This document shows positions 3,580-59,532 of a DNA stretch of 64,000 bases, piece after piece. Source of the stretch: a virus. The stretch spans positions 62,001 through 126,000 of IMG/VR virus record IMGVR_UViG_3300008952_000005. The stretch is one strand, 5' to 3'. The translations under genes were made by a program, and so were the position numbers. The notes beneath the pieces are model-generated. The model made no database searches. It saw only the letters and a program-made list of their open reading frames with translations, and was not told where the DNA came from. Every line of letters begins with the position of its first letter. Position 1 is the first letter of the stretch.

Positions 3580-4110
3580 TTATCTTATCAAACTTCTAAA
3601 TTCTTCAACAAAAGTTCCAACATATGTCGTATCTAATATTTTAATTAATCTTTTCTTATTCTGTATTCTCATTTCATATTCAAAATTAGTAACTGGACCT
3701 GCACCTGTGTCCGTTGAATTGCACTCTATCATATGGGAATAATCTTCAGGTCCATTACCTATTTGTCTACCACTTGATTGTACTTTTTCATAATGATGTA
3801 TTGCGCCTGGATCATCATATTTGTCATTAACAAATTCATTAAATGCAATACTAGAGAGTGGCCAATCGTAATAGATATTTGTAATATCATTTAACAATAA
3901 AATAATCCAATGATAATTTGAATTGCCATATACTTTATATGCTAAACTTTCAGGAGTTTCGCCATCTTTTACCTCATACTTATCTAACAATGGTACGTTA
4001 TCTTTTATTTTATTTTTTACTTTTATTCTTCTGAATATATCAGGCACAACCTTATAATTATTATTGCCTTTTATATCATAGACTAATTTTGGAAATTGAG
4101 CAAAATACAT
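3580..4110 (-). CDS. 53: baseplate wedge subunit gp53
   Basis: 176 aa. N-terminal MYFAQFPKLVYDI is the usual gp53 opening. A LysM-like core follows (GETPESLAYKVYGNSNYHWI, then LLLNDI and DWPLSS), the signature of the T4 gp53 family. This protein completes the baseplate wedge and lets wedges join around the hub. It ends four bases before the gp27-like gene and starts one base after the stop of gp48, so the three are co-transcribed. No oddities seen. Confidence 0.9.
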   Translation of the reverse strand: MYFAQFPKLVYDIKGNNNYKVVPDIFRRIKVKNKIKDNVPLLDKYEVKDGETPESLAYKVYGNSNYHWIILLLNDITNIYYDWPLSSIAFNEFVNDKYDDPGAIHHYEKVQSSGRQIGNGPEDYSHMIECNSTDTGAGPVTNFEYEMRIQNKKRLIKILDTTYVGTFVEEFRSLIR

Positions 4111-4111
4111 A

Positions 4112-5350
4112 TTAGTAACCTTTTTCCATTTTATCTTTAGTCATATATTCTAATTCTTTAAATGTTAAATTTATTTGATAACTTACTGGAGAATTATCTT
4201 CAAAGAATTTAGGATTGCCGTCTGGATTATAACTAACTTCACAATCTGATAATGCACATCTTGATATTTTATTTAATTTTTCATTTACTCCATCTTTACA
4301 TAGATAATGTATTTCAAATTCAGATGGTATTCTAAACATCCTACCATAGTAATCTTCATCTGTTATTGGGTGCATATGATATTTAAATAATTTAATTATA
4401 TTTTGTACTCTATGAGATTCATCCTGGGTTCTAGGCCAAAATTTAAAACTATATTGAAATTGTCTAAATTGTGGTCCTTCATAATACATTTCTGCTCGTG
4501 GGTTGATTGCCATACCAAATGCCTTTGATGTTAATTTAAATGCGTCACCACCCCCAAAACCTGCTAAAAGTTCACCTCCTTGTTTCTTAATAAATCCTGT
4601 AGCAGCACCGATACCACCTTTGATTGCTTCACCAAACATTTCTCCAACAGTACCCGCTTTTTTCACACCTTTAATTACTTCTGCTATATCACCTGCCAGT
4701 TCAGCGTCATCTGTTTCCCAAGTTGCCTTGTATGATACCTTAACATCTGGTGGCATATACAATGCAATCGCCGAAGTTACAATCTGACCATCTGGTACTT
4801 CCGTTAATACTGTATTATCTAAAGCAACTTGTTGTACAGCATACTTAACTTTGTTAGTACCTTTTCCTTGGGTATATTGTGTTCTTAAATTAGTTGACCT
4901 TGTACTTGTATATGTGCCAATACCTGTAGTTCCAAATTTGCTGGATAACGCTGGTGAACCTATTGGTTTATTTTCTTGAGCATTATATTTAATATCACCT
5001 TCGCCAGTATCACCTGTTACAAGACCTAATGATTTTGAATATGCTAAATCCATACTTGCTTCTTTATCACTAACCATTCTATTTGTTAATGTAAAAAATA
5101 GTATGTAGTGACCTAGTTCAGCACTACCAAGGTCTGCTGGGTATTGTATGTTTTCAAACCCTAAAGGGTCTGCTGTTATACGCTCTATTGGTGTAGGTGG
5201 TATTTCAAATGGTGAGGCATTTATTTGTAGTTGTTTAGGCATTCCAGAATTATTACCACTATTCTTGTTGAGATTGAGCATTCCGCCAAGAGCGGTGTTA
5301 GTAACAAAGTTTGCTACACCATTTCTTATGAATTCTGATATTTTTGTCAT
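4112..5350 (-). CDS. 48: baseplate tail-tube cap protein gp48
   Basis: 412 aa (T4 gp48 is 364 aa). The C-terminal half carries the tube-fold segment YYEGPQFRQFQYSFKFWPRT followed by HRVQNIIKLFKYHMHP and FRIPSEFEIHYL, typical of the gp48/gp54/tube family. The middle contains a Gly/Ala-rich insertion (about residues 225-275) that could be membrane-like or flexible. It forms the platform on which the tail tube starts, with gp54 encoded at 11857. A TATAAATA box lies 36 bases upstream of the ATG on this strand, so expression is probably late. Confidence 0.82.
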   Translation of the reverse strand: MTKISEFIRNGVANFVTNTALGGMLNLNKNSGNNSGMPKQLQINASPFEIPPTPIERITADPLGFENIQYPADLGSAELGHYILFFTLTNRMVSDKEASMDLAYSKSLGLVTGDTGEGDIKYNAQENKPIGSPALSSKFGTTGIGTYTSTRSTNLRTQYTQGKGTNKVKYAVQQVALDNTVLTEVPDGQIVTSAIALYMPPDVKVSYKATWETDDAELAGDIAEVIKGVKKAGTVGEMFGEAIKGGIGAATGFIKKQGGELLAGFGGGDAFKLTSKAFGMAINPRAEMYYEGPQFRQFQYSFKFWPRTQDESHRVQNIIKLFKYHMHPITDEDYYGRMFRIPSEFEIHYLCKDGVNEKLNKISRCALSDCEVSYNPDGNPKFFEDNSPVSYQINLTFKELEYMTKDKMEKGY

Positions 5351-5410: not shown

Positions 5411-5845
5411 ATGAGAAAGAGTTACAAAGGAATTTACAGACCAACGTACCCTAGAAAGTATGTAGGCAACCCTAATATGATAGTGTATAGGTCACTATTA
5501 GAGCGTAGGTTTATGCACTATTGCGACCAAAATCCTGATGTTTTAGTTTGGGCAAGTGAAGAGTTACCTATCAGATACTATAATCCATTAGACAAGAAAT
5601 TTCATAGATACTTTCCAGACTTTATCATTAAAACAATAAAGAATAAAAAGTATATGATTGAAATTAAACCATCAAGACAAACTGTTAAACCTAAAAAACC
5701 TAAAATAAAGACAAAAGCATTTATGCGTGAGTCATTTAACTACATTAAAAATAAGGCAAAATGGCAAGCAGCCAGAGCATATTGTGTAAATAATAATATG
5801 GAGTTTAAGTTACTTACTGAAAAGAATTTAGGTCTTAAATACTAA
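5411..5845 (+). CDS. 4: head completion protein gp4 (nuclease fold)
   Basis: 144 aa, matching the size of T4 gp4. Sequence features are YRPTYPRKYVGNP, then SLLERRFMHYCDQNP, then FPDFIIKT and YMIEIKPSRQT, which together form a PD...ExK restriction-endonuclease-like core. The family closes the filled head before tail joining and may trim DNA. It is one of only two clear plus-strand genes and is convergent with the IscA-like gene, overlapping it by 11 bases. Its own TATAAATA box lies upstream. Confidence 0.88.
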   Translation: MRKSYKGIYRPTYPRKYVGNPNMIVYRSLLERRFMHYCDQNPDVLVWASEELPIRYYNPLDKKFHRYFPDFIIKTIKNKKYMIEIKPSRQTVKPKKPKIKTKAFMRESFNYIKNKAKWQAARAYCVNNNMEFKLLTEKNLGLKY

Positions 5846-17859: not shown

Positions 17860-18474
17860 CTAATCTATCAAATACTTATAACAAATTGGGAAATGGTCTT
17901 TCATATGTCTTGATAACTGGTGAGTGACCATTCTCGTTTCTGCTTGAGCATTACTCTTACTCCTTAAATTACATACTCTACTAAATGCAAATACACTACC
18001 TGACCATATCCACTCGGTCATCATACATTGAGGTAGTACCATACGTGCCATTTCTGGTGCAATACCTTCCTCTAACATATCATTGTATGTTTCTGTAGCC
18101 ACATTTATTAAATGTGTAATATCATATTCTACTTCTTCATCACTTGAACCTTGTTTAATACTCTTCTCTGGTTTCTTTCTCCACATAAAAGGTATATAAA
18201 ACTCTGGTTTATCTGAAACATATCGTCTACTCACTTCGTTCCAACTTAAACCTACTTGATGTTTAACTAATTGTCTTGCAACAAAGATAGGTGCTTTAAT
18301 TCTAAATGATAGAAAGGCGTGTGCAAATGGTGACCAATGTCCGTGCAATGCCAAATACTTAATTAACTTGTCATCTTTTTCATCAAGTACATCTTTTCTT
18401 TTTGCAAAGGATACTCTAGCAGCATTGACTACTGATAGGTCACTACCTAACTTATCTATAAGTTCTATATCCAT
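17860..18474 (-). CDS. thyX: flavin-dependent thymidylate synthase ThyX
   Basis: 204 aa. The ThyX signature appears as KHQVGLSWNEVSRRYV (RHRxxSxNExSxRY family motif), preceded by FAHAFLSFRIKAPIFVARQL. The C-terminal part has ARMVLPQCMMTEWIWSGSVF and a trailing HMKDHFP. It converts dUMP to dTMP using FAD, NADPH and methylene-folate, boosting dTTP supply together with NrdAB at 46670-50762. It ends one base before the gp59 start region. Confidence 0.93.
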   Translation of the reverse strand: MDIELIDKLGSDLSVVNAARVSFAKRKDVLDEKDDKLIKYLALHGHWSPFAHAFLSFRIKAPIFVARQLVKHQVGLSWNEVSRRYVSDKPEFYIPFMWRKKPEKSIKQGSSDEEVEYDITHLINVATETYNDMLEEGIAPEMARMVLPQCMMTEWIWSGSVFAFSRVCNLRSKSNAQAETRMVTHQLSRHMKDHFPICYKYLID

Positions 18475-18662
18475 TAAAATAACTTCCCTAGTTTATATAC
18501 ACCCCATAATGCCATAAAGACAAATAATGCACTTAACATCCCACCTTCAAACAAAGCAACTAATGTAACTGTTGCCCACAATGCATAGAACACTAAAGAT
18601 TTCCAGTTCATAAAGAACCAAACTAATGCTAATCCAATTACTTTTAAATATTCTTTTATCAT
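18474..18662 (-). CDS. small two-span membrane protein
   Basis: 62 aa, almost entirely hydrophobic: VIGLALVWFFMNWKSLVFYA and VALFEGGMLSALFVFMALWG. It shares a one-base overlap with both neighbours (gp33 upstream, ThyX downstream). Function unknown. Confidence 0.55.
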   Translation of the reverse strand: MIKEYLKVIGLALVWFFMNWKSLVFYALWATVTLVALFEGGMLSALFVFMALWGVYKLGKLF

Positions 18663-18877
18663 TACGGTAATACTCCAGGTTTACCACCTTTTAATAAGTT
18701 TAACTGTTGTGATTGATGTTGTATTTTTTCTTTGAGTTGTTTTGTAATTAGACGTGCTGTAGTTTCAACTTCAATAGTATTTTCTTCACAATATTTAACA
18801 ATAGCATCCACATATAACATATCTTTATGCTTCTTTACTATGTCCTCTATGATTAAAGAAAATTCTTTTGAGTTCAT
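18662..18877 (-). CDS. 33: late-transcription co-activator gp33-like
   Basis: 71 aa. The segment EFSLIIEDIVKKHKDMLYVD, then AIVKYCEENTIEVE and ITKQLKEKI, resembles the short late-transcription co-activator proteins of marine T4-like phages. Such proteins bridge the host RNA polymerase beta flap and the sliding clamp so that TATAAATA promoters fire. A TTTACA-17-TATAGT promoter ends six bases before the ATG, predicting early, leaderless expression. The location beside gp59 and gp32 supports the call. Confidence 0.65.
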   Translation of the reverse strand: MNSKEFSLIIEDIVKKHKDMLYVDAIVKYCEENTIEVETTARLITKQLKEKIQHQSQQLNLLKGGKPGVLP

Positions 18878-18883
18878 TTTATT

Positions 18884-18912
18884 ACTATAACATATTTATT
18901 AGCAAATGTAAA
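18884..18912 (-). promoter_or_regulatory. sigma70-type promoter of gp33
   Basis: TTTACA (18907-18912) and TATAGT (18884-18889) with a 17-base spacer. Six bases separate the -10 box from the ATG, so the transcript would begin at the start codon. The box lies in the 3' end of the tmRNA gene. Confidence 0.6.
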
Positions 18913-19171
18913 GTGTGTAGTTTCTGTTGCCACGTACTACACAACGCCGTTTGCCTATTAACTAGGCAGCAAGAGCATAACTTTCGTTAGCTTTTATGTG
19001 TTTGTCCTTTAAAGTAGCAACCTACTATCTAACTCCAGTTAGTTTTGATTGTGAATCGATTCCATATCATCCCCCATAAGCACACTTGAAATCAATGTGT
19101 TTATGGTGGAGATGTTGGGAATTGAACCCAAGTGTTCTCCAACTATTATCTAACCTTCAACGTCAAATTCA
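18900..19171 (-). ncRNA. ssrA: circularly permuted tmRNA (two-piece type)
   Basis: Minus-strand order is acceptor piece, then coding piece. First come a T arm (TTGGGTTCAATTCCCAA at about 19115-19132) and the end ATCTCCACCA (CCA at 19104-19106). A 29-base intervening hairpin (19075-19103) follows, then GGGGATGATATGGAATCGA starting at 19074. The seven acceptor pairs GGGGAUG/CAUCUCC are complete and include G3-U70, the alanyl-tRNA synthetase identity pair, with discriminator A. The tag frame 18965-18991 reads ANESYALAA followed by a stop. Outer ends are approximate. This arrangement is known from alphaproteobacteria; its presence in a phage is the notable point. Confidence 0.93.
18962..18991 (-). 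other. tmRNA tag reading frame ANESYALAA-stop
   Basis: GCU AAC GAA AGU UAU GCU CUU GCU GCC UAG. The resume codon is GCU (Ala) and the C-terminal Leu-Ala-Ala is the ClpXP/ClpAP-type degradation end (E. coli tag is ANDENYALAA). It lies in the coding piece, about 80 bases from the mature 5' end. Confidence 0.9.
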
Positions 19172-19567
19172 TTATAAACTTATTCCTTGTTTGTTTGGCA
19201 TAAACTTTAAATCAAATGACTTGTATAACATACAAGATTCCATTCCATTCATTGTTGACATAACTACAAGTGATATTGTATATGTAGGGTCAACATAATA
19301 ACTTACTATAAAAACTGGTTCACCATCTGGTCTAGCACTATCTCTACCAACAGAAACATTAACCAAAGTCATTTCGTTCTTTTCTATATATGCAAGTACA
19401 CTTTCACTAGTTCCACATATAACAGGCATTTGTAACCAATATAATTGTCCTTGCAAATTATCTTGTGGCATTTCAGGCAATGGTGATGTTTCCTGCTCCG
19501 CCATAGCAAGTGTGCTCATAGTTATGAGTACTGCTCCAAATATTATTGATTTTAACCTTTTTAACAT
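19172..19567 (-). CDS. secreted hypothetical protein
   Basis: 131 aa. Residues 1-23 form a Sec signal (AVLITMSTLAMA) with a likely cut before EQE. The mature part contains VICGTSESVLAYIEKNEM and DGEPVFIVSYYVDP; two cysteines (residues ~51 and ~111) could pair. Similar proteins occur in marine T4-like phages, role unknown. It ends where the tmRNA acceptor piece begins. Confidence 0.6.
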   Translation of the reverse strand: MLKRLKSIIFGAVLITMSTLAMAEQETSPLPEMPQDNLQGQLYWLQMPVICGTSESVLAYIEKNEMTLVNVSVGRDSARPDGEPVFIVSYYVDPTYTISLVVMSTMNGMESCMLYKSFDLKFMPNKQGISL

Positions 19568-19602: not shown

Positions 19603-20301
19603 TTAATGATTTTGCTTGATTTTATCTTTGTTTAGTTCTTCATAGTATTTATAAAAATACTGTATAGATTTTTCTAGTTTTGGCTCAAATATTTTTTTAT
19701 CTTTGACAAAAGAACGCATTGTGCCGTCTTCACCTGCCATTAGTATAACTAATTGTTCTATGCGTTTGCCAAATAGCTCTTCATACATAATTGCATAGGC
19801 AGTTGTTTGGACAAAATAGTTTTCTATCCAATCTTCTTTACGTTCCTTATTTGCTGTCTTGAAATCTATTACTGATAACTTACCATTGTACTCAGCAACA
19901 CAATCAACTTGACCTGCAATGGTCAATTTATGACTGTACATAATTTCTTCTAGTAAATGTATGTTATTAATTTGTGCTAAATATGGCAACATCAATCTAA
20001 ACATACCTAATGGCAACACATCACGAATACTTGGAGTTTCACCTCTTAAATATTGTTCAACAAGTGTATGAGTTGCTTTGCCTCTACGTGCCGCTCTACC
20101 CATTTCCCAATTGGCTGCTTCTTCACCAACTGCTTTTCTCCACTTATCTAATCCTTCTTTTTTCTGTACACCTAAAACTGTAGTGATAGATGGATAGTTC
20201 TTACCATCAATATCATAGAAACGGAAACCGTTTATACGTCTACCTTTTGTTTTTGGAAGTTTTGTCTTATCAATATTAATCCAAGTAAATTTATCTGCCA
20301 T
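19603..20301 (-). CDS. PD-(D/E)XK exonuclease (RecB-like)
   Basis: 232 aa. The motif IAGQVDCVAEYNGKLSVIDF followed by KTANK gives D...D-x-K of the RecB-type nuclease core. Upstream helices carry ARRGKATHTLVEQYL. It is likely a phage recombination or DNA-repair exonuclease. Its ATG overlaps the stop of the small gene upstream (TAATG). Confidence 0.75.
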   Translation of the reverse strand: MADKFTWINIDKTKLPKTKGRRINGFRFYDIDGKNYPSITTVLGVQKKEGLDKWRKAVGEEAANWEMGRAARRGKATHTLVEQYLRGETPSIRDVLPLGMFRLMLPYLAQINNIHLLEEIMYSHKLTIAGQVDCVAEYNGKLSVIDFKTANKERKEDWIENYFVQTTAYAIMYEELFGKRIEQLVILMAGEDGTMRSFVKDKKIFEPKLEKSIQYFYKYYEELNKDKIKQNH

Positions 20302-34877: not shown

Positions 34878-35695
34878 ACGTTTTGTTCTCGTAATGTTCT
34901 ATAAGCAGTTCCATCTGTAATTTCAGATATTGTAAATTGATTTTCTGCAATCATCTTTAACCATTCTGTTATAGTCTTTCGTCCTGGTCTCATTGGTTTG
35001 TTTATAAACTTTATATCTTTTGATGAAACAAATGACGCTATATTTCGTTGATGGCATATTACAGGTACTTGATTTAATATTGAATCAATAGCAGATAAAC
35101 TCATATTGGTTACCAAACAATGAGCATTTTTTAAGTCTTCTTTAATATCTGTATTCCAAAACTCATTACCAGGTCTAGGTTTATTTCTAAATCTAACTGG
35201 TTTATCTGTATGTTCTGCTATCTGTTTTGTTGCTTGTTCAACCCATTGTGATTGGCTCATACCATTGATTTGGTAAGTTACCGTTTCAGAAGAAGGTGCT
35301 ACTAGTATATGAGTTGTTTCTCCAGTATTCCACCCTTTAAACTGTACGTCAATCCCTTGATGCTCTAGTTTCTGTAATCTTGAACCAGGTCCAACTTTGC
35401 ACCTAATCGTGTGTATATTACCTTTACATATTCTAAAATATGTCTTATCGTAATCGTGTATTTTAGGTTCTGGATATCTTGTAATTTGTTGTGTTAAATA
35501 ACCAACATCTACGTACCACCATTCCTCACCACTCTCCATACATTTACGTATTTCTTTTCTATTCTGTCCAGCTAAACCCCAAAAAAAGTGAACAGGTTTA
35601 TCTGTATCAGTCCAACCTTTTTCTATGGCAGGAAATAACTGTTTACTTAAACATTTATCCCAAGGTATATTATGCGTTATTATCATAAGTTTCAA
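34874..35695 (-). CDS. polysaccharide glycosyltransferase-like protein (GT-B-like)
   Basis: 273 aa. C-terminal half: CLVTNMSLSAIDSILNQVPV, then ENQFTISEITDGTAYRTL. The closely similar ending ANQFTMTEIKNGTAWR is found in the protein encoded at 36722, so the two are paralogues. They look like capsule/Kdo-type transferases that need a nucleotide sugar. Acceptor unknown. Confidence 0.55.
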   Translation of the reverse strand: MKLMIITHNIPWDKCLSKQLFPAIEKGWTDTDKPVHFFWGLAGQNRKEIRKCMESGEEWWYVDVGYLTQQITRYPEPKIHDYDKTYFRICKGNIHTIRCKVGPGSRLQKLEHQGIDVQFKGWNTGETTHILVAPSSETVTYQINGMSQSQWVEQATKQIAEHTDKPVRFRNKPRPGNEFWNTDIKEDLKNAHCLVTNMSLSAIDSILNQVPVICHQRNIASFVSSKDIKFINKPMRPGRKTITEWLKMIAENQFTISEITDGTAYRTLREQNV

Positions 35696-36725
35696 ATACT
35701 GTATTCAATGGTTGGTTACATCTAACAAAACTTGCACATTTAGGAATATCTTTTAATCGTCTTGCACCAATATATGTACAACTTGAACGGACACCTCCTA
35801 ATATATCTTCTATCGTTTCTTTAACAGGTCCTCTATCTGGTAATATAACTGCTCGTCCTTCATTACCTCTATAACCATCTTTTCGTTTTCCGTGTACTTC
35901 TCTTGCTCTATCAGAAGACATCCCATAAAACTCTCTTTGTCCATCTTTTAATTCTACTTCACTTTCATTATGTCCTGCTAGCATTCCACCTAACATCACA
36001 AAATGAGCACCACCACCAAATGCTTTCGCAATATCTCCTGGCATATTACAACCACCATCTGCAACTATATGACCACCAACACCATTAGCAGCGTCAGCAC
36101 ACTCTACTACTGCACTAAATTGAGGTACCCCTACACCTGCCATTGTTCTTGTTGTACATACACTACCTGGTCCAATACCTACTTTAACTACGTCTGCACC
36201 TTGTATAATTAGTTCTTCGGTCATTTCAGCAGTTACTACATTACCTGCAATTATAGTTTTGTCTGGATACTCTTCTCTAACTGCACCAACAAAATCTGAA
36301 AAATTTGTATGGTAACCATTTGCAACATCTACTGTAATAAACTTAACATCTGGAAAACTCTTTAATACTTCTTGCATTGTAGTATAATCTTCAGCATTAT
36401 CATCCCATAATTTACCTGTACCTGTACATACTGATAGATACTTTAATTTAATACCTTCACCTACTGCTTTTCTCCATTGTTCTATCGTTGTTGTCTTTGT
36501 AATCGTGGTTAACATCTTATACTCTTGTATAACTTTCGCCATACTAAATGTTCCCACTCCATCCATATTACTTGCTATTATTGGACAACACTCATATGTT
36601 TCACCAGAATTTCTAAATGTAAATGACCTAGTCATTTCTACATCACGTCTTGATGATAATGTTGACCGTTTAGGTTTCAACAATACGTCTTTATAATCTA
36701 ATTTTACTTCGTTATCTAATCTCAT
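35670..36725 (-). CDS. guaC: GMP reductase (IMPDH/GMPR family)
   Basis: 351 aa from the ATG at 36725, which overlaps the previous stop (ATGA). The sequence runs LDYKDVLLKPKRSTLSSRRD, then CPIIASNMDGVGTFSMAK, and GIGPGSVCTTRTMAGVGVPQ, the catalytic Cys loop. A later VADGGCNMPGDIAKAF segment follows. No CBS domain is present, and the length fits GMP reductase (about 345 aa) better than IMP dehydrogenase. It would turn GMP into IMP with NADPH. It lies inside a surface-sugar cluster that also holds Gmd, whose substrate is a GDP-sugar. Confidence 0.82.
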   Translation of the reverse strand: MRLDNEVKLDYKDVLLKPKRSTLSSRRDVEMTRSFTFRNSGETYECCPIIASNMDGVGTFSMAKVIQEYKMLTTITKTTTIEQWRKAVGEGIKLKYLSVCTGTGKLWDDNAEDYTTMQEVLKSFPDVKFITVDVANGYHTNFSDFVGAVREEYPDKTIIAGNVVTAEMTEELIIQGADVVKVGIGPGSVCTTRTMAGVGVPQFSAVVECADAANGVGGHIVADGGCNMPGDIAKAFGGGAHFVMLGGMLAGHNESEVELKDGQREFYGMSSDRAREVHGKRKDGYRGNEGRAVILPDRGPVKETIEDILGGVRSSCTYIGARRLKDIPKCASFVRCNQPLNTVFETYDNNA

Positions 36726-37474
36726 TGTACTTTTCTCCAAGCTGTTCCATTTTTTATTTCTGTCATAGTAAATTGATTTGCTAATAAACTATGTATCCAT
36801 TTTAATCTAGCAGGTTTTATAGGTTGTTCTATTTTACTAAAATCGGTTAACCCCATTGGTACTCCCATATTCATTTTATCACAAAATACAGGTACCCCAT
36901 TTAAAACAGCGTCAACTACAACTGCTGAATTATGAGATACTATAGCATATGCACTTTGTACTTCTTCTCTTAAAGGTTTACTACTTTTTTTATCTCTTAC
37001 TTTAATAGGTCTATCTGTATATTGTTTTAAAGTCTTTATAGTATCATCAACCCAACTACCTATATTATGATATGCTATTTGAAAATGAGAAGGTGCTATA
37101 ATTAAGATATAATTGCCATCACTTTTCCAAGGTTGTAATTTTATATACTGTTTATACTTTTTAATTCTTTCATTATCTTCATCTGTTAGTTCTTGTATAG
37201 TTTGTATATGATAATGATTTTTTGTTAATCTATATATTCTCTCACCAGTTACCTTTGATGGAGAGTGTCTATTACCATATAAGTAAGCGTGGTCAAAATA
37301 ATAAAACTCTTTACTTTGTTTTAAAAGTTCGCCTGTGCCTCTTAATATTCCAAAACAAGTAATAGGTTTATCTATATCAACATCTTTAACATTATGTAAT
37401 GTTCCTCCTGCACTTGAAACAAAATGTCTTACAATATCATCTGTTGCTGGTCTAGTTAATAATCCTTGTATCAT
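36722..37474 (-). CDS. polysaccharide glycosyltransferase-like protein (paralogue)
   Basis: 250 aa. Paralogue of the protein at 34874 by its C-terminal segment (ANQFTMTEIKNGTAWR) and by AIVSHNSAVVVDAVLNGVPV, a phosphate-loop-like stretch. Probably acts on a nucleotide sugar. Overlaps neighbours by about four bases on each side. Confidence 0.55.
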   Translation of the reverse strand: MIQGLLTRPATDDIVRHFVSSAGGTLHNVKDVDIDKPITCFGILRGTGELLKQSKEFYYFDHAYLYGNRHSPSKVTGERIYRLTKNHYHIQTIQELTDEDNERIKKYKQYIKLQPWKSDGNYILIIAPSHFQIAYHNIGSWVDDTIKTLKQYTDRPIKVRDKKSSKPLREEVQSAYAIVSHNSAVVVDAVLNGVPVFCDKMNMGVPMGLTDFSKIEQPIKPARLKWIHSLLANQFTMTEIKNGTAWRKVQ

Positions 37475-38372: not shown

Positions 38373-39124
38373 CTGTTTCTTCTCCATTCTGGACTATTTG
38401 GTTGGTATTTTCTTTTACCTTTTCTATGGTCTATATATGGATTAATAAACGTATCTCTTGCCATTATATGTCCATTTCCACCATCCCCTAGTGGTTTTTC
38501 ACTATACCTGGGATCGTTTTTAAACATTTGCCTAGTACCGTCCAATGTATGGCAATCTGTCCAAAAATTCTTTCCTAATTTCTTTATTGAATATACTTTA
38601 TCTGTTACATACCAATTTTTATATGCTTGAAAAAAATCATTGGCTACAAGACTTGAATTATTAAATGCAACAAAACCTGTTTCTGTATATTGATTTGGTC
38701 TATTATAAAATGATAAAAATGTTAACATTGGTAAACATTGCTGCCACCAAAGACGTGGTATTGTGTCCATAAACTTACAATCACTATCTACATAAAATAT
38801 TTTATCTGACCAAGCTCTTGCTGCCGATTGAGCAAATACTTTATAACTAAATCTTATCGCTTGTTCATAAAAATTATTTGCTACTCTATGTTTATTTCTT
38901 TTAATAAAATCTTTTAAATCTGGTTCAAAATCAAATATATTTTCATACTTTACTTTGTCTACTTTAGGATATAAACTTGGACTATCTTCAACAAAAACAA
39001 GCATATGTGGTTTTTGATTTGTTGCCTTGTATGAGTCAATTAATTGATGAGCATAATCATCATATAATCTTTTATTAAATGTTGTAACAAATAAGGAACT
39101 GTTATTGCCTAAAGGAATGCTCAT
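38369..39124 (-). CDS. glycosyltransferase-like protein
   Basis: 251 aa from the ATG at 39124 (MSIPLGNNSS), which overlaps the gmd stop. SDKIFYVDSDCKFMDTIPRL has a DxD. Further segments are WTDCHTLDGTRQMFK and GDGGNGHIMARDTF. A longer start at 39151 would overlap gmd by 28 bases. Acceptor unknown. Confidence 0.6.
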   Translation of the reverse strand: MSIPLGNNSSLFVTTFNKRLYDDYAHQLIDSYKATNQKPHMLVFVEDSPSLYPKVDKVKYENIFDFEPDLKDFIKRNKHRVANNFYEQAIRFSYKVFAQSAARAWSDKIFYVDSDCKFMDTIPRLWWQQCLPMLTFLSFYNRPNQYTETGFVAFNNSSLVANDFFQAYKNWYVTDKVYSIKKLGKNFWTDCHTLDGTRQMFKNDPRYSEKPLGDGGNGHIMARDTFINPYIDHRKGKRKYQPNSPEWRRNR

Positions 39125-40173
39125 TATATACAATTCTCTGGAGCATCCCAAAGTCTTGGTACTCCTGATTGATGGTCACTACAAAATCTACCAACATCTG
39201 CGTCAACCATTTCTTTCATTAAACTCTCTACATTATGTTTATGTTCCCAACCTAATACTTCTCTTGCCTTACTAGCATCCCCTTGTAATACATCTACCTC
39301 AGCAGGTCTTAAATGTTTCTTATCAGTAGTAATAATTAATTGATTGCCGTCTGTAAAACATTTACCATCTTTCCAATAATGTTTTATATCTTTATAATCT
39401 AATGCCATATCTGCAAATTCCTTTACTGTATGAATTTCACCAGTTGCTAATATATAGTCATCTGGTTTATCGTGTTGTAGCATTTGCCACATACCTCTAA
39501 CAAAATCCTCAGCGTGTCCCCAATCTCTTTTTGCATTTAAATTTCCTAAAACAATTGGTCTTCCTTCTTGCAACCAATGTGCTAAACCTTTTGATATTTT
39601 TCTAGTTACAAAGTCCTCACCTCTATGTGGACTTTCGTGATTAAATAATAAACCACAACAAGCAAACATATCATACGCCTCTCTATAATTAATTGTTATG
39701 TGATGAGCATATAGTTTTGCAACACCATATGGTGACCTCGGCCAAAATTTCGTTGTTTCTTTTTGTGGGGTTTCAAATACTTTTCCATACATTTCACTTG
39801 TACTTGCTTGATAAAATTTTATTTTAGGATTAACTTGTCTTATACTTTCTAGTATTCTCAAAGGACCCATTGCGTCTATTAAAGTAGCAAGTTCTGGTTG
39901 TTTAAATGATAACCATACAAATGATTGAGCAGCTAAATTATAAACTTCATCTGGTTGAGTTTCTTCTATTGCTCTTCTTATATTTGCCTGGTCTATTACG
40001 TCAAGTTCAACAAACTCTATTTGGTCTGTAATACCCATTTCATCTAGTCGCCAATGTTTTGGTGATGTACTTCGTCTTTGTCCACCAAATACTTTATAAC
40101 CTTTTTCTAATAACAATTTAGCAAGATAGGCGCCGTCTTGTCCAGTTATTCCTGTTATTAATGCTCTTTTCAT
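39124..40173 (-). CDS. gmd: GDP-mannose 4,6-dehydratase
   Basis: 349 aa. The Rossmann start ALITGITGQDGAYLAKLLLE is followed by QASTSEMYGKVFETPQKE and the YxxxK triad in SPYGVAKLYAHH. This set is diagnostic of Gmd, which converts GDP-D-mannose to GDP-4-keto-6-deoxy-D-mannose. The next gene upstream encodes a sugar 3-dehydratase that could use that product. Overlaps the downstream transferase gene. Confidence 0.93.
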   Translation of the reverse strand: MKRALITGITGQDGAYLAKLLLEKGYKVFGGQRRSTSPKHWRLDEMGITDQIEFVELDVIDQANIRRAIEETQPDEVYNLAAQSFVWLSFKQPELATLIDAMGPLRILESIRQVNPKIKFYQASTSEMYGKVFETPQKETTKFWPRSPYGVAKLYAHHITINYREAYDMFACCGLLFNHESPHRGEDFVTRKISKGLAHWLQEGRPIVLGNLNAKRDWGHAEDFVRGMWQMLQHDKPDDYILATGEIHTVKEFADMALDYKDIKHYWKDGKCFTDGNQLIITTDKKHLRPAEVDVLQGDASKAREVLGWEHKHNVESLMKEMVDADVGRFCSDHQSGVPRLWDAPENCI

Positions 40174-41396: not shown

Positions 41397-43223
41397 TTAT
41401 ATATTCATCTTAAAAACCTTGTACCAAATCGCAAATGCCATTATAGTAAATAGTTCTTTTTGTGAGCGTTGACCAATATTAGGTAATATTTTCTTTTCTC
41501 CAGCTTTATTTAAACCTTTTGACCAACTTTCTCTTTTATTACACATATATTTATCATCTATTTCGGACTGGTTATATTCAAATATTTCTTGCATTTCTTT
41601 ATTTGATAGTACAGTTCTAATATAATCTTTTAATATGTTATTATCATCAGCTCGTTTGCTAAGTCTACCTACAATAAATTCATCTGTAGGAAATCTCCAA
41701 CCAGTTTTCTCTCTCTCTAATATTTTTAATGGTAATCTTTTATAATATGCTGTCTTTAATAGTGGTTTATTATAATATGCCCAATTATCTTCCATAAAAT
41801 TCTTGTTGATTTTATGTTCACTAGGGATACTTCGTATATAATCTCTAAAAGTTTTATTCATAAAAGGAAATCTTCCTTCTAAACTAAATCTCATACCTAA
41901 CTTATCATTTCTCATTAAAAAATCTTCTGATAATGTATTTAAACACTCAATGAACATAAAATCATTTCTTTCATCACCTTGCAAACCACCTTTTGGAAAC
42001 CAACTATCAAGATACTCTAATTGTTCTTCGTGTGTTGCCCATAGTTCTTTATTTTTTAATTCTCTATGATTAGCACATAATGCTTTTAACTTCGTTGCCC
42101 AATCTGGTTGTCTATGATGTTTATAACCACATAACAATTCATCTCCACCATCACCACTTAAAGTTACCGTTATACCTTGTTTCTTTATATATTCATTAAC
42201 TCCAAAATATACAGGTAAACTTTTACTTTGTCTAGGTTCTTCTAATGCTAACGCTGTATTTTCCCAATTATCTGTAAAATATTGTTGATTAATATATAGT
42301 TCTCTATGTTCACCACCATATGTTGCTGACATTTCTTTTGCCAATATACAATCTTCGTTAGACCTTGATTTCCAATCATAAGTTTCAAATTTTGAACTAA
42401 ATGTTTTTGGTTTTGTTTGCCACAATTTTGACATTTCATAACAAATAGCCGTACTATCAATACCACCACTTAAAAACAATCCAATTTCTCTACGACCCAT
42501 TAAGGTTTCTTTTACTGCCTGGTGTAATCTATTTCTAACTTCTTCTTTAATTTTACCTACATTTTTAACATTTCTTAACCCTATTTGTCTATTATTAATA
42601 TTAGTAGAAATTTTAGCACTAGTTACTACGTTCATCTTAACAACTTCACCTGGTACTAATTTTTTAATACCTTTAAACAATGTCAAATAACCAGAATTAT
42701 ATCCTTGTTTATAATACTGTTTGAATGCCTCTTTATCTACTTTTCTTTCAAATCCTAATGTTAATAAACTTTTAATCTCGGATGAAAAAGCAAACTTACC
42801 ATTTATATAACCATAATAAAGAGGTTTAGTTCCATTACTATCTCTGGCAATAATTAATTCTTTTGTCTTCTTATTATAGCAAGCAAATGCAAACATTCCA
42901 TCTAATTTTTCTATAAATGATATGCCATATCTTTCTAAACCTAACATTAAAACTTCCGTATCTGTATTAGTTTTAAGTTTAAATTCTTTACCTAGTTCTT
43001 TGTAATTGTATATCTCACCATTATATACTAACACCCTATCGTTATGAATCCAAGGTTGTTTTGAGTTTTCTGTAGTGTCTATGATTGATAATAAATTATG
43101 ACCTAAAGTAATATCTTCATCTTGCCAATGTCCATTACCATCAGGTCCTCTATGATGTGCTTCGCACAACATTTCTTTTATCAAACTAGTTGATGACCAT
43201 AATATTCCGTGTATCGCACACAT
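41397..43223 (-). CDS. asnB: glutamine-hydrolysing asparagine synthase
   Basis: 608 aa. The protein begins MCAIHGILWSS, so Cys2 is the glutaminase nucleophile. FLSGGIDSTAICYEMSKL is the ATP-pyrophosphatase motif. Further matches are DREGxxP-type NGTKPLYYGY and GRFPFMNKTFRDYI. It may make asparagine, or transfer the amide to a sugar or protein, as AsnB-like genes in surface-sugar clusters often do. Ends three bases from the neighbour. Confidence 0.9.
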   Translation of the reverse strand: MCAIHGILWSSTSLIKEMLCEAHHRGPDGNGHWQDEDITLGHNLLSIIDTTENSKQPWIHNDRVLVYNGEIYNYKELGKEFKLKTNTDTEVLMLGLERYGISFIEKLDGMFAFACYNKKTKELIIARDSNGTKPLYYGYINGKFAFSSEIKSLLTLGFERKVDKEAFKQYYKQGYNSGYLTLFKGIKKLVPGEVVKMNVVTSAKISTNINNRQIGLRNVKNVGKIKEEVRNRLHQAVKETLMGRREIGLFLSGGIDSTAICYEMSKLWQTKPKTFSSKFETYDWKSRSNEDCILAKEMSATYGGEHRELYINQQYFTDNWENTALALEEPRQSKSLPVYFGVNEYIKKQGITVTLSGDGGDELLCGYKHHRQPDWATKLKALCANHRELKNKELWATHEEQLEYLDSWFPKGGLQGDERNDFMFIECLNTLSEDFLMRNDKLGMRFSLEGRFPFMNKTFRDYIRSIPSEHKINKNFMEDNWAYYNKPLLKTAYYKRLPLKILEREKTGWRFPTDEFIVGRLSKRADDNNILKDYIRTVLSNKEMQEIFEYNQSEIDDKYMCNKRESWSKGLNKAGEKKILPNIGQRSQKELFTIMAFAIWYKVFKMNI

Positions 43224-57876: not shown

Positions 57877-59532
57877 ATGATTAAAATATTGACGAAAACG
57901 TGGGCAGTATATTTGACGTTGATTATATTACTTGGAATATATATATCAAATCCTATCTTGCTACAAACAGCAAAACTAAACACCTTTGATTTTTACCAAA
58001 CCTTTGGTAAGAATTATGAATCCAAAAGTTTAGTACTAGTAGACATATCAGACAAAGCATTAAAAAAGAATGGGCAATGGCCGTGGAAAAGAGATTTACT
58101 TGGTCGTGTCATAATCAATGCGTATAAAAATGGTGCCGCTCTTGTAGTTTTACAAGTAGTCTTCCCACATAAAGATAGATTAGGTGGTGATGAAATGTTT
58201 TTGAAAATGATACAAAAATATCCAGTCATACTTACTGAAACGGATGATGTAAAAAATCTACAAAGTATCTCACGTAAAGCATTAGCAATAGGTAACGTAA
58301 GTGTGCCAGTTGATATAGATGGCACTATAAGAAAACTACCTCTTGATAAATCCATACCTGATGTTATCTTAAAAGTTATCAATGCAAAAACTTTAGCAGA
58401 AGATACTATCTGGATTGATTTCAGACATCATATTCCTAGAATAGATTTTACTGATAAAGATTGGTCGTCTGTAAAAGGTAAAATAGTTTTCATAGGTACA
58501 ACATTCCAAGGTTCAACATTTGTTACTACTCCTAATGGATTAAAAAACACACACGAAATTATGGCAATCAGTACAGAAACTTTATTGTCAGGTAATTTTA
58601 TTAGTAGACCTTATTGGTTACCATATAGTGAATTTGCTTTTATACTATTAGGTGCTCTATTTTTTCTCATAGTTATACCTAGATGTGGTGTAATGTGGTC
58701 TGCGATATGGTTTGGTGGATACTTATTTGATTTAACACTTGCAAGTTCTTATCTATGGACGCAACACTTAATCATAACTGATTGGTTCAGTCCACTTGTA
58801 ATAGGGTCTGTAATATGGGGTCAGTTAACATACAATAACTATTCAAAAGAAAATAAATTAAGACTACAAATTAAGAAACAATTTGAACACTATCTATCTC
58901 CAGATATGGTTAAAAAACTACAAAAGAATCCATCACTATTAAAACTAGGTGGTGAAAGAAAAAAAATGACGTTTTTGTTTTCAGACATACGTGGCTTTAC
59001 TCCTATATCGGAATCTATGAAAGGTAATCCAGAAAAACTTACCAAGTATGTTAATAAGTTCTTGACTGTAATGACTGATATAATATTAAAAAATGGTGGA
59101 ACTATTGATAAGTATATGGGTGATTGTATAATGGCATTTTGGAACGCACCCCTAGACAATCCAAATCATCAAAGATTAGCAGTATTATCTGCATCCCAAA
59201 TGAAAAAAACAGTTGAAGAAATGAATAAGAGTAGAGAGTTTGACCCACCTTTAAAGATTGGTATAGGTATCAATACTGGTGAGTGTCTTGTAGGTAATAT
59301 GGGGTCTGAACAACGTTTTGATTATTCTGTTATTGGTGACGCTGTTAATTTGGCAAGTAGATTGGAAGGTAAAAGTAAAGATTTTGATACTACAATAGTA
59401 ATATCTCAACATACTGCTGAAGGTATTGACTTTGTTCCATTGGCAAGACCAGATGGATTTAAATTCTATAAACTAGGTATCTCTACTGTAAAAGGTAAAA
59501 AAGAAAAGGTTAATTGTTTTTCTATTAAATAA
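57877..59532 (+). CDS. CHASE2-domain class III adenylate cyclase
   Basis: 551 aa. One N-terminal membrane segment, a periplasmic CHASE2-like sensor domain (about residues 35-240, with LVDISDKALKKNGQWPWKRD), three membrane segments (about 245-335), then a class III cyclase. Catalytic residues are readable: D370 in FLFSDIRGFTP and D416 in KYMGDCIMAF bind metal, K412 selects adenine, N491 and R495 in IGDAVNLASRLEG stabilise the transition state. It should make cAMP inside the host in response to a periplasmic signal. The only long plus-strand gene besides gp4. It diverges from the csgF operon whose FecR protein is a frequent partner of such cyclases. Confidence 0.9.
   Translation: MIKILTKTWAVYLTLIILLGIYISNPILLQTAKLNTFDFYQTFGKNYESKSLVLVDISDKALKKNGQWPWKRDLLGRVIINAYKNGAALVVLQVVFPHKDRLGGDEMFLKMIQKYPVILTETDDVKNLQSISRKALAIGNVSVPVDIDGTIRKLPLDKSIPDVILKVINAKTLAEDTIWIDFRHHIPRIDFTDKDWSSVKGKIVFIGTTFQGSTFVTTPNGLKNTHEIMAISTETLLSGNFISRPYWLPYSEFAFILLGALFFLIVIPRCGVMWSAIWFGGYLFDLTLASSYLWTQHLIITDWFSPLVIGSVIWGQLTYNNYSKENKLRLQIKKQFEHYLSPDMVKKLQKNPSLLKLGGERKKMTFLFSDIRGFTPISESMKGNPEKLTKYVNKFLTVMTDIILKNGGTIDKYMGDCIMAFWNAPLDNPNHQRLAVLSASQMKKTVEEMNKSREFDPPLKIGIGINTGECLVGNMGSEQRFDYSVIGDAVNLASRLEGKSKDFDTTIVISQHTAEGIDFVPLARPDGFKFYKLGISTVKGKKEKVNCFSIK

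Follow-up and report, generated by a model that had tools for sequence, protein, structure and literature searches.

The tmRNA gene and its phage neighbourhood

The DNA analysed here, referred to throughout as the window, is a 64 kb stretch out of a 177,460-base IMG/VR virus record. On its minus strand, at about 18912-19171, lies a permuted (two-piece) tmRNA gene, ssrA, of alphaproteobacterial type, whose tag reads ANESYALAA and whose mature ends are predicted only. Two independent tmRNA finders are concordant on this gene. ARAGORN reported one permuted tmRNA with the same tag (span 18871-19197), and a scan of the minus strand of 18912-19171 with all Rfam families returned RF04321 (permuted tmRNA) at 99.3 bits, where the family cut-off is 47 (E 4e-18), matched over the full length of the model (1-213), together with RF01849 (alpha_tmRNA) at 76.9 bits against a cut-off of 50 (E 3.9e-19). 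The sole further match in 18700-19500, with Rfam at E up to 1, fell far under its own cut-off. The folding energy of the gene has a z-score of -3.6. A sequence-only reading of this DNA had proposed a circularly permuted tmRNA of alphaproteobacterial layout; ARAGORN and the two covariance models confirm that layout, and that reading was also right about the minus-strand positions, the order of the parts, the spacer of 29 bases, the tag and the G3-U70 pair.

The gene was also said to be phage-encoded, which the T4-like gp33, gp59, tail and baseplate genes of the 177-kb record bear out. Proteins of the window match phage tail, baseplate tube cap, ThyX, helicase loader, endonuclease, endolysin and a gp33-type late-transcription regulator. 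The tmRNA is flanked on the same strand by conserved neighbours. Upstream are a PD-(D/E)XK-type exonuclease (19603-20301; phrog_298, E 1.8e-66; 70% identical to that of phage Mosig) and a small ORF of 131 aa (19172-19567), separate from the tmRNA and ending just before it, which has no Pfam or PHROG match and a start that resembles a signal peptide. The next gene downstream encodes a gp33-like late-transcription coactivator of 71 aa (18662-18877; phrog_254, E 8.9e-19), followed by the flavin-dependent thymidylate synthase ThyX (17860-18474; phrog_85, E 2.3e-69; 70% identical to Mosig). By its sequence the phage is a T4-like member of the pelagimyophage/Melnitz group, with Mosig and HTVC008M, both SAR11 phages, among its relatives. 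We infer a SAR11 host from these phage relatives and the tag only. A search of the 177-kb record turned up no tRNA, though the record may not be complete.

Elsewhere in the window, a 551-aa protein (57877-59532, plus strand) combines a CHASE2 sensor (residues 15-262) with a class III adenylate/guanylate cyclase domain (362-550), making it a phage-encoded cyclic-nucleotide signalling protein; relatives with 29-33% identity occur in HTVC008M and Melnitz, where they are annotated as cyclases. Metabolic genes are also carried on the minus strand, namely an IMP dehydrogenase/GMP reductase-type protein (35670-36740), a nucleotide-sugar epimerase (39124-40173) and a glutamine-dependent asparagine synthetase (41397-43223).

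Along the minus strand the 3' tRNA half with its CCA precedes the 5' acceptor strand. The gene opens with the 5' strands of long P2-type helices connecting the two pieces (19136-19170), beginning with the conserved GAATTTGACGTTGAAGG, followed by the T stem-loop TTGGG-TTCAATT-CCCAA (19115-19131), the acceptor 3' strand CATCTCC (19114-19108) and the discriminator A73 with an encoded CCA (19107-19104, CCA at 19106-19104). A short intervening sequence of 29 nt with a hairpin, presumably cut out, occupies 19103-19075. The acceptor 5' strand GGGGATG then runs from G1 at 19074 to 19068 and pairs perfectly with its partner (7/7 pairs counted), including the G3-U70 pair of alanine identity, as the sequence-only reading had it. 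A hairpin, AGTAG-GTTG-CTACT (19013-19026), sits at the site of the pre-tag pseudoknot and is a variant seen in the window's sub-clade. The tag frame (18991-18962) reads GCT AAC GAA AGT TAT GCT CTT GCT GCC TAG, with both the hydrophobic end and the stop in place. Last comes a 3' H-type pseudoknot (18914-18947), in which stem 1 pairs GCGT (18947-18944) with ACGT (18935-18932) and stem 2 pairs TGTGTAGT (18943-18936) with ACTACACA (18921-18914).

Covariation and retention among related phages

The structure was evaluated in an alignment of 21 relatives, all non-redundant and drawn from this phage group, in which 53 base pairs of the window's structure were counted. Pairing was preserved in 83.7% of cells compared with 71.3% in shuffles, and dropped to about 39-45% when the partner was slid by 1-3 columns. 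Changes on both sides were seen in 32 of the 53 named pairs, a figure equalled in 0 of 500 shuffles, and the covariation score was 0.309 against 0.107; no observed value was reached by any shuffle. P2-type helices 1-3 were paired in 98.1, 98.8 and 82.0% of cells, with double changes at 12 of their 14 pairs, and one P2 position in the window itself is a G-A mismatch. The T stem (helix 4) was paired in 100% of cells with double changes in 4 of 5 pairs, and the acceptor stem (helix 5) in 98%, its U-G pair being kept in 21/21 relatives.

The terminal pseudoknot of RF01849 carries an AACAGAA loop, and here too a pseudoknot is found, with compensatory changes among relatives. Stem 1 occurs there in four versions (GCGT/ACGT, GCCT/AGGT, GGGT/ACCT and GAGT/ACTT), and despite these a row-by-row search found both stems preserved in nearly all relatives; two rows, L145 and L151, gave another best pairing in this simple search. 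An alternative GTTG/CAAC pairing was dropped, as it is GCGT/ACGT that covaries. Just upstream of the tag, only a hairpin and no clear pseudoknot is evident in the window's own sub-clade, whereas relatives have pseudoknot-type pairing, judged by eye, of the form UGAUA/UAUCA or UGACA/UGUUA. The expectation that P2 and pseudoknot pairing around the tag would be conserved is upheld for the P2-type helices and the 3' pseudoknot, which covary. In the window the spacer hairpin has 6 pairs and is weak, 3.8% of shuffles folding equally well; it recurs in most phage relatives.

To follow the gene through related phages, IMG/VR loci were collected via the exonuclease and ThyX and then scanned for tmRNA. 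Fifty-three loci had an exonuclease at least 82% identical, and one of them stops short of the slot, leaving 52 that are informative. In 52/52 a tmRNA with a tag ending in ALAA lies between the exonuclease/small-ORF pair and gp33; the loci are metagenomic contigs, some of them near-copies, so that the 52 are not independent cases and form 15 clusters at <93% identity. ARAGORN found 50 of these genes, and the other two (L127 and L167) were seen by blastn and reading, so that their apparent loss was rejected as an ARAGORN miss. The same holds for L241 and L263, where the gene was found by Rfam. The tags across the 52-locus group are ANESYALAA, ANESLALAA, ANEQFALAA, GEGNFALAA and DNASYALAA. In a sister clade (L176-L202), where exonuclease identity is 73-77%, the slot is mostly devoid of tmRNA, L198 being an exception, and the small ORF and gp33 lie close together in the loci examined. 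ThyX beside gp33 is also missing from the sister-clade loci examined.

Phage tmRNAs with different tags have much of their remaining sequence in common, and by eye the 3' pseudoknot versions are shuffled among them, near-identical versions being joined to differing 5' halves and tags (L126, L158, L162 and L169 as against the window, L134 and L157). Since different tags stand on a common remainder and pseudoknot versions are shuffled, this pattern, as read by eye, points to recombination of modules within the gene, which would make it a mosaic.

The tag, the SAR11 host and likely function

The sequence-only reading credited the phage with its own tag. We therefore compared the tag with those of SAR11 tmRNAs, of which 44 were read. 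ANESYALAA was the commonest (18), followed by ANDKFALAA (13, and one more with extra stops), ANESYAIAA (5) and ANEQFALAA (3). The phage tag is identical to this SAR11 host tag and, given how common it is there, is not phage-specific. The corresponding DNA pattern was present in 13/60 SAR11-family genomes; across a sample of 115 genomes of the class, the sole genome to have it was the SAR11 query, and none outside SAR11 did. A permuted tmRNA was found in 50 of the 60 sampled SAR11-family genomes, many of them incomplete, and SmpB in 10/10 SAR11 genomes checked. SmpB was not found in the phage record, possibly incomplete, by the same search that was positive in control genomes. The host is predicted to provide this partner for the phage tmRNA.

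Taken together, the locus holds an intact permuted two-piece ssrA, resident in a T4-like marine phage lineage and likely to supply extra tmRNA dosage to a host that presumably has its own. By far the most likely function would be rescue of stalled ribosomes during infection, with host SmpB. In such a scheme host tRNA-processing enzymes would cut the precursor before and after the 29-nt spacer, leaving two pieces that remain paired, and host alanyl-tRNA synthetase would charge the RNA via G3-U70. Host SmpB could then deliver the RNA where ribosomes have stalled on broken mRNA, and the nascent chain would receive a SAR11-type tag ending in ALAA and pass to host proteases. The likely gain would be that ribosomes are recycled and fragments cleared as the DNA and mRNA of the host are broken down, a benefit arising from raised dosage rather than from replacement of a missing host RNA. 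Counting against a dosage benefit, SAR11 cells already own ssrA, and most of the sister clade manages without a tmRNA at the slot.

Three other roles have less support than extra dosage, namely selective tagging of host proteins, action as a decoy, and replacement of an RNA that the host has lost. Buchholz et al. 2022 (PMC9004378) proposed for Melnitz that the phage tmRNA serves salvage, directing host proteins to degradation through the tag and freeing their amino acids for reuse. Host proteases should accept an ALAA-ending tag that matches the host's own, but tmRNA acts on stalled ribosomes whichever message they carry, and nothing in the sequence confers selectivity for host proteins. Early expression would also be needed, and no strong promoter-like site was seen right before the gene, although such a scan is weak evidence; we regard salvage as improbable here. 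Considerably less probable still is that the phage RNA is a decoy that sequesters host SmpB and inhibits trans-translation in the host, in the manner reported for a molecule with the tRNA domain only, like that of mycobacteriophage DS6A. A short phage-type form does inhibit host tmRNA (PMC4131195; PMC11915505); unlike DS6A, however, the window's gene has a tag frame, a stop codon and a distal pseudoknot, all conserved across relatives.

Replacement of a tmRNA lost by the host had been among the roles first suggested. SAR11 genomes are streamlined, yet we found no support for such a loss, and the permuted tmRNA and SmpB counts given above make it exceedingly improbable. Hardly any chance, likewise, attaches to an unused host gene recently picked up, for example by imprecise excision, a route by which phages carry ssrA fragments (PMC9004378). 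In the tree the SAR11 genes group as a single clade (98/99), apart from the phage genes, which lie beside it on a provisional joint branch (83/87) with Melnitz loosely placed; identity between the window's gene and that of the host is about 62%. Compensatory changes in the structure and retention in every informative locus tell against such a passenger, as do flanks made up of T4-like core genes, with no integrase among the neighbours examined. For the permuted tmRNAs of SAR11-type myophages as a group, covariation and near-complete retention indicate maintained working RNAs, not relics. With rescue by extra tmRNA dosage as the preferred reading, the locus offers a testable case of a phage that would keep a ribosome-rescue tag compatible with host proteolysis.

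Comparison with known tmRNAs

The sequence-only reading held that a permuted tmRNA in a phage is rarely if ever described. This does not stand, as 53 two-piece tmRNAs have been counted among public phage genomes (PMC9004378) and Mosig carries an annotated one in the corresponding position. For this phage group a permuted tmRNA is already on record, and ours is one more example. Buchholz et al. 2022 described two-piece tmRNAs, with proposed functions, in Melnitz and related pelagimyophages, including 17/47 Melnitz-like contigs (PMC9004378), and 79 phage tmRNA sequences have been listed (PMC11915505). The permuted motif occurs in at least 119 stretches of IMG/VR, not all of them necessarily phage. 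Other phage tmRNAs occur in mycobacteriophages such as Bxz1 and Wildcat and in Bacillus phage G (PMC4131195). Their likeness to the window's gene is that of a tmRNA borne by a phage. To our knowledge, the tmRNAs of Bxz1, Wildcat and phage G are not of the permuted alphaproteobacterial type.

The SsrA of Pelagibacter phage Mosig EXVC030M (MT647606; Mosig_00148) is a permuted tmRNA 67% identical to ours in the same slot (exonuclease, small ORF, tmRNA, gp33, ThyX, gp59). It differs in its tag, GEDNFALAA rather than ANESYALAA, and in its spacer, which measures about 43 nt and folds into a long perfect hairpin, compared with 28-29 nt and a weak hairpin on the window side. In Pelagibacter phage HTVC008M (KC465899), ARAGORN detects a permuted tmRNA between the same neighbours with the tag ANFNEYALAA in place of ANESYALAA; this gene (4031-4372 of our extracted locus, L280) is absent from the KC465899 feature list for that stretch. 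Methylophilales phage Melnitz (MZ577097) has a permuted SsrA of alphaproteobacterial type upstream of gp33, differing in its tag, ANDNYVPVDYALAA, and its 142-nt spacer. Between tmRNA and gp33 Melnitz also has a glutamine riboswitch (RF01739, 52.8 bits), which the Rfam search did not find in 18700-19500 of the window. We rejected the idea that this riboswitch is really the 3' end of the tmRNA misread, as RF01739 matches separately downstream (5606-5654 of the Melnitz locus, L279). Given its position after the tmRNA and before gp33, the riboswitch more likely controls gp33 than the tmRNA.

The chromosomal ssrA of SAR11 (Pelagibacteraceae) is likewise permuted, with the tag ANESYALAA and the same 3' pseudoknot plan, and in the closest case its tag bases equal the window's at 28/30. 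It differs in overall sequence, at the 62% identity noted above, and in a spacer of 10-13 nt without a hairpin, compared with 29 nt with one. ANESYALAA and ANEQFALAA are common to phages and SAR11, with similar codons; GEGNFALAA and DNASYALAA are phage-lineage tags absent from the hosts sampled. It is possible, though on balance doubtful, that phage tmRNAs are under selection for the tag of the current host clade, the tag and upstream segment being exchanged as a module. Were this so, the tag would serve as a readable marker of host clade or protease use. As judged from these sequences, a host-identical tag inside an otherwise divergent RNA is the single fresh point of the case, and it indicates that the tag can equal the host's although the rest of the RNA has diverged.
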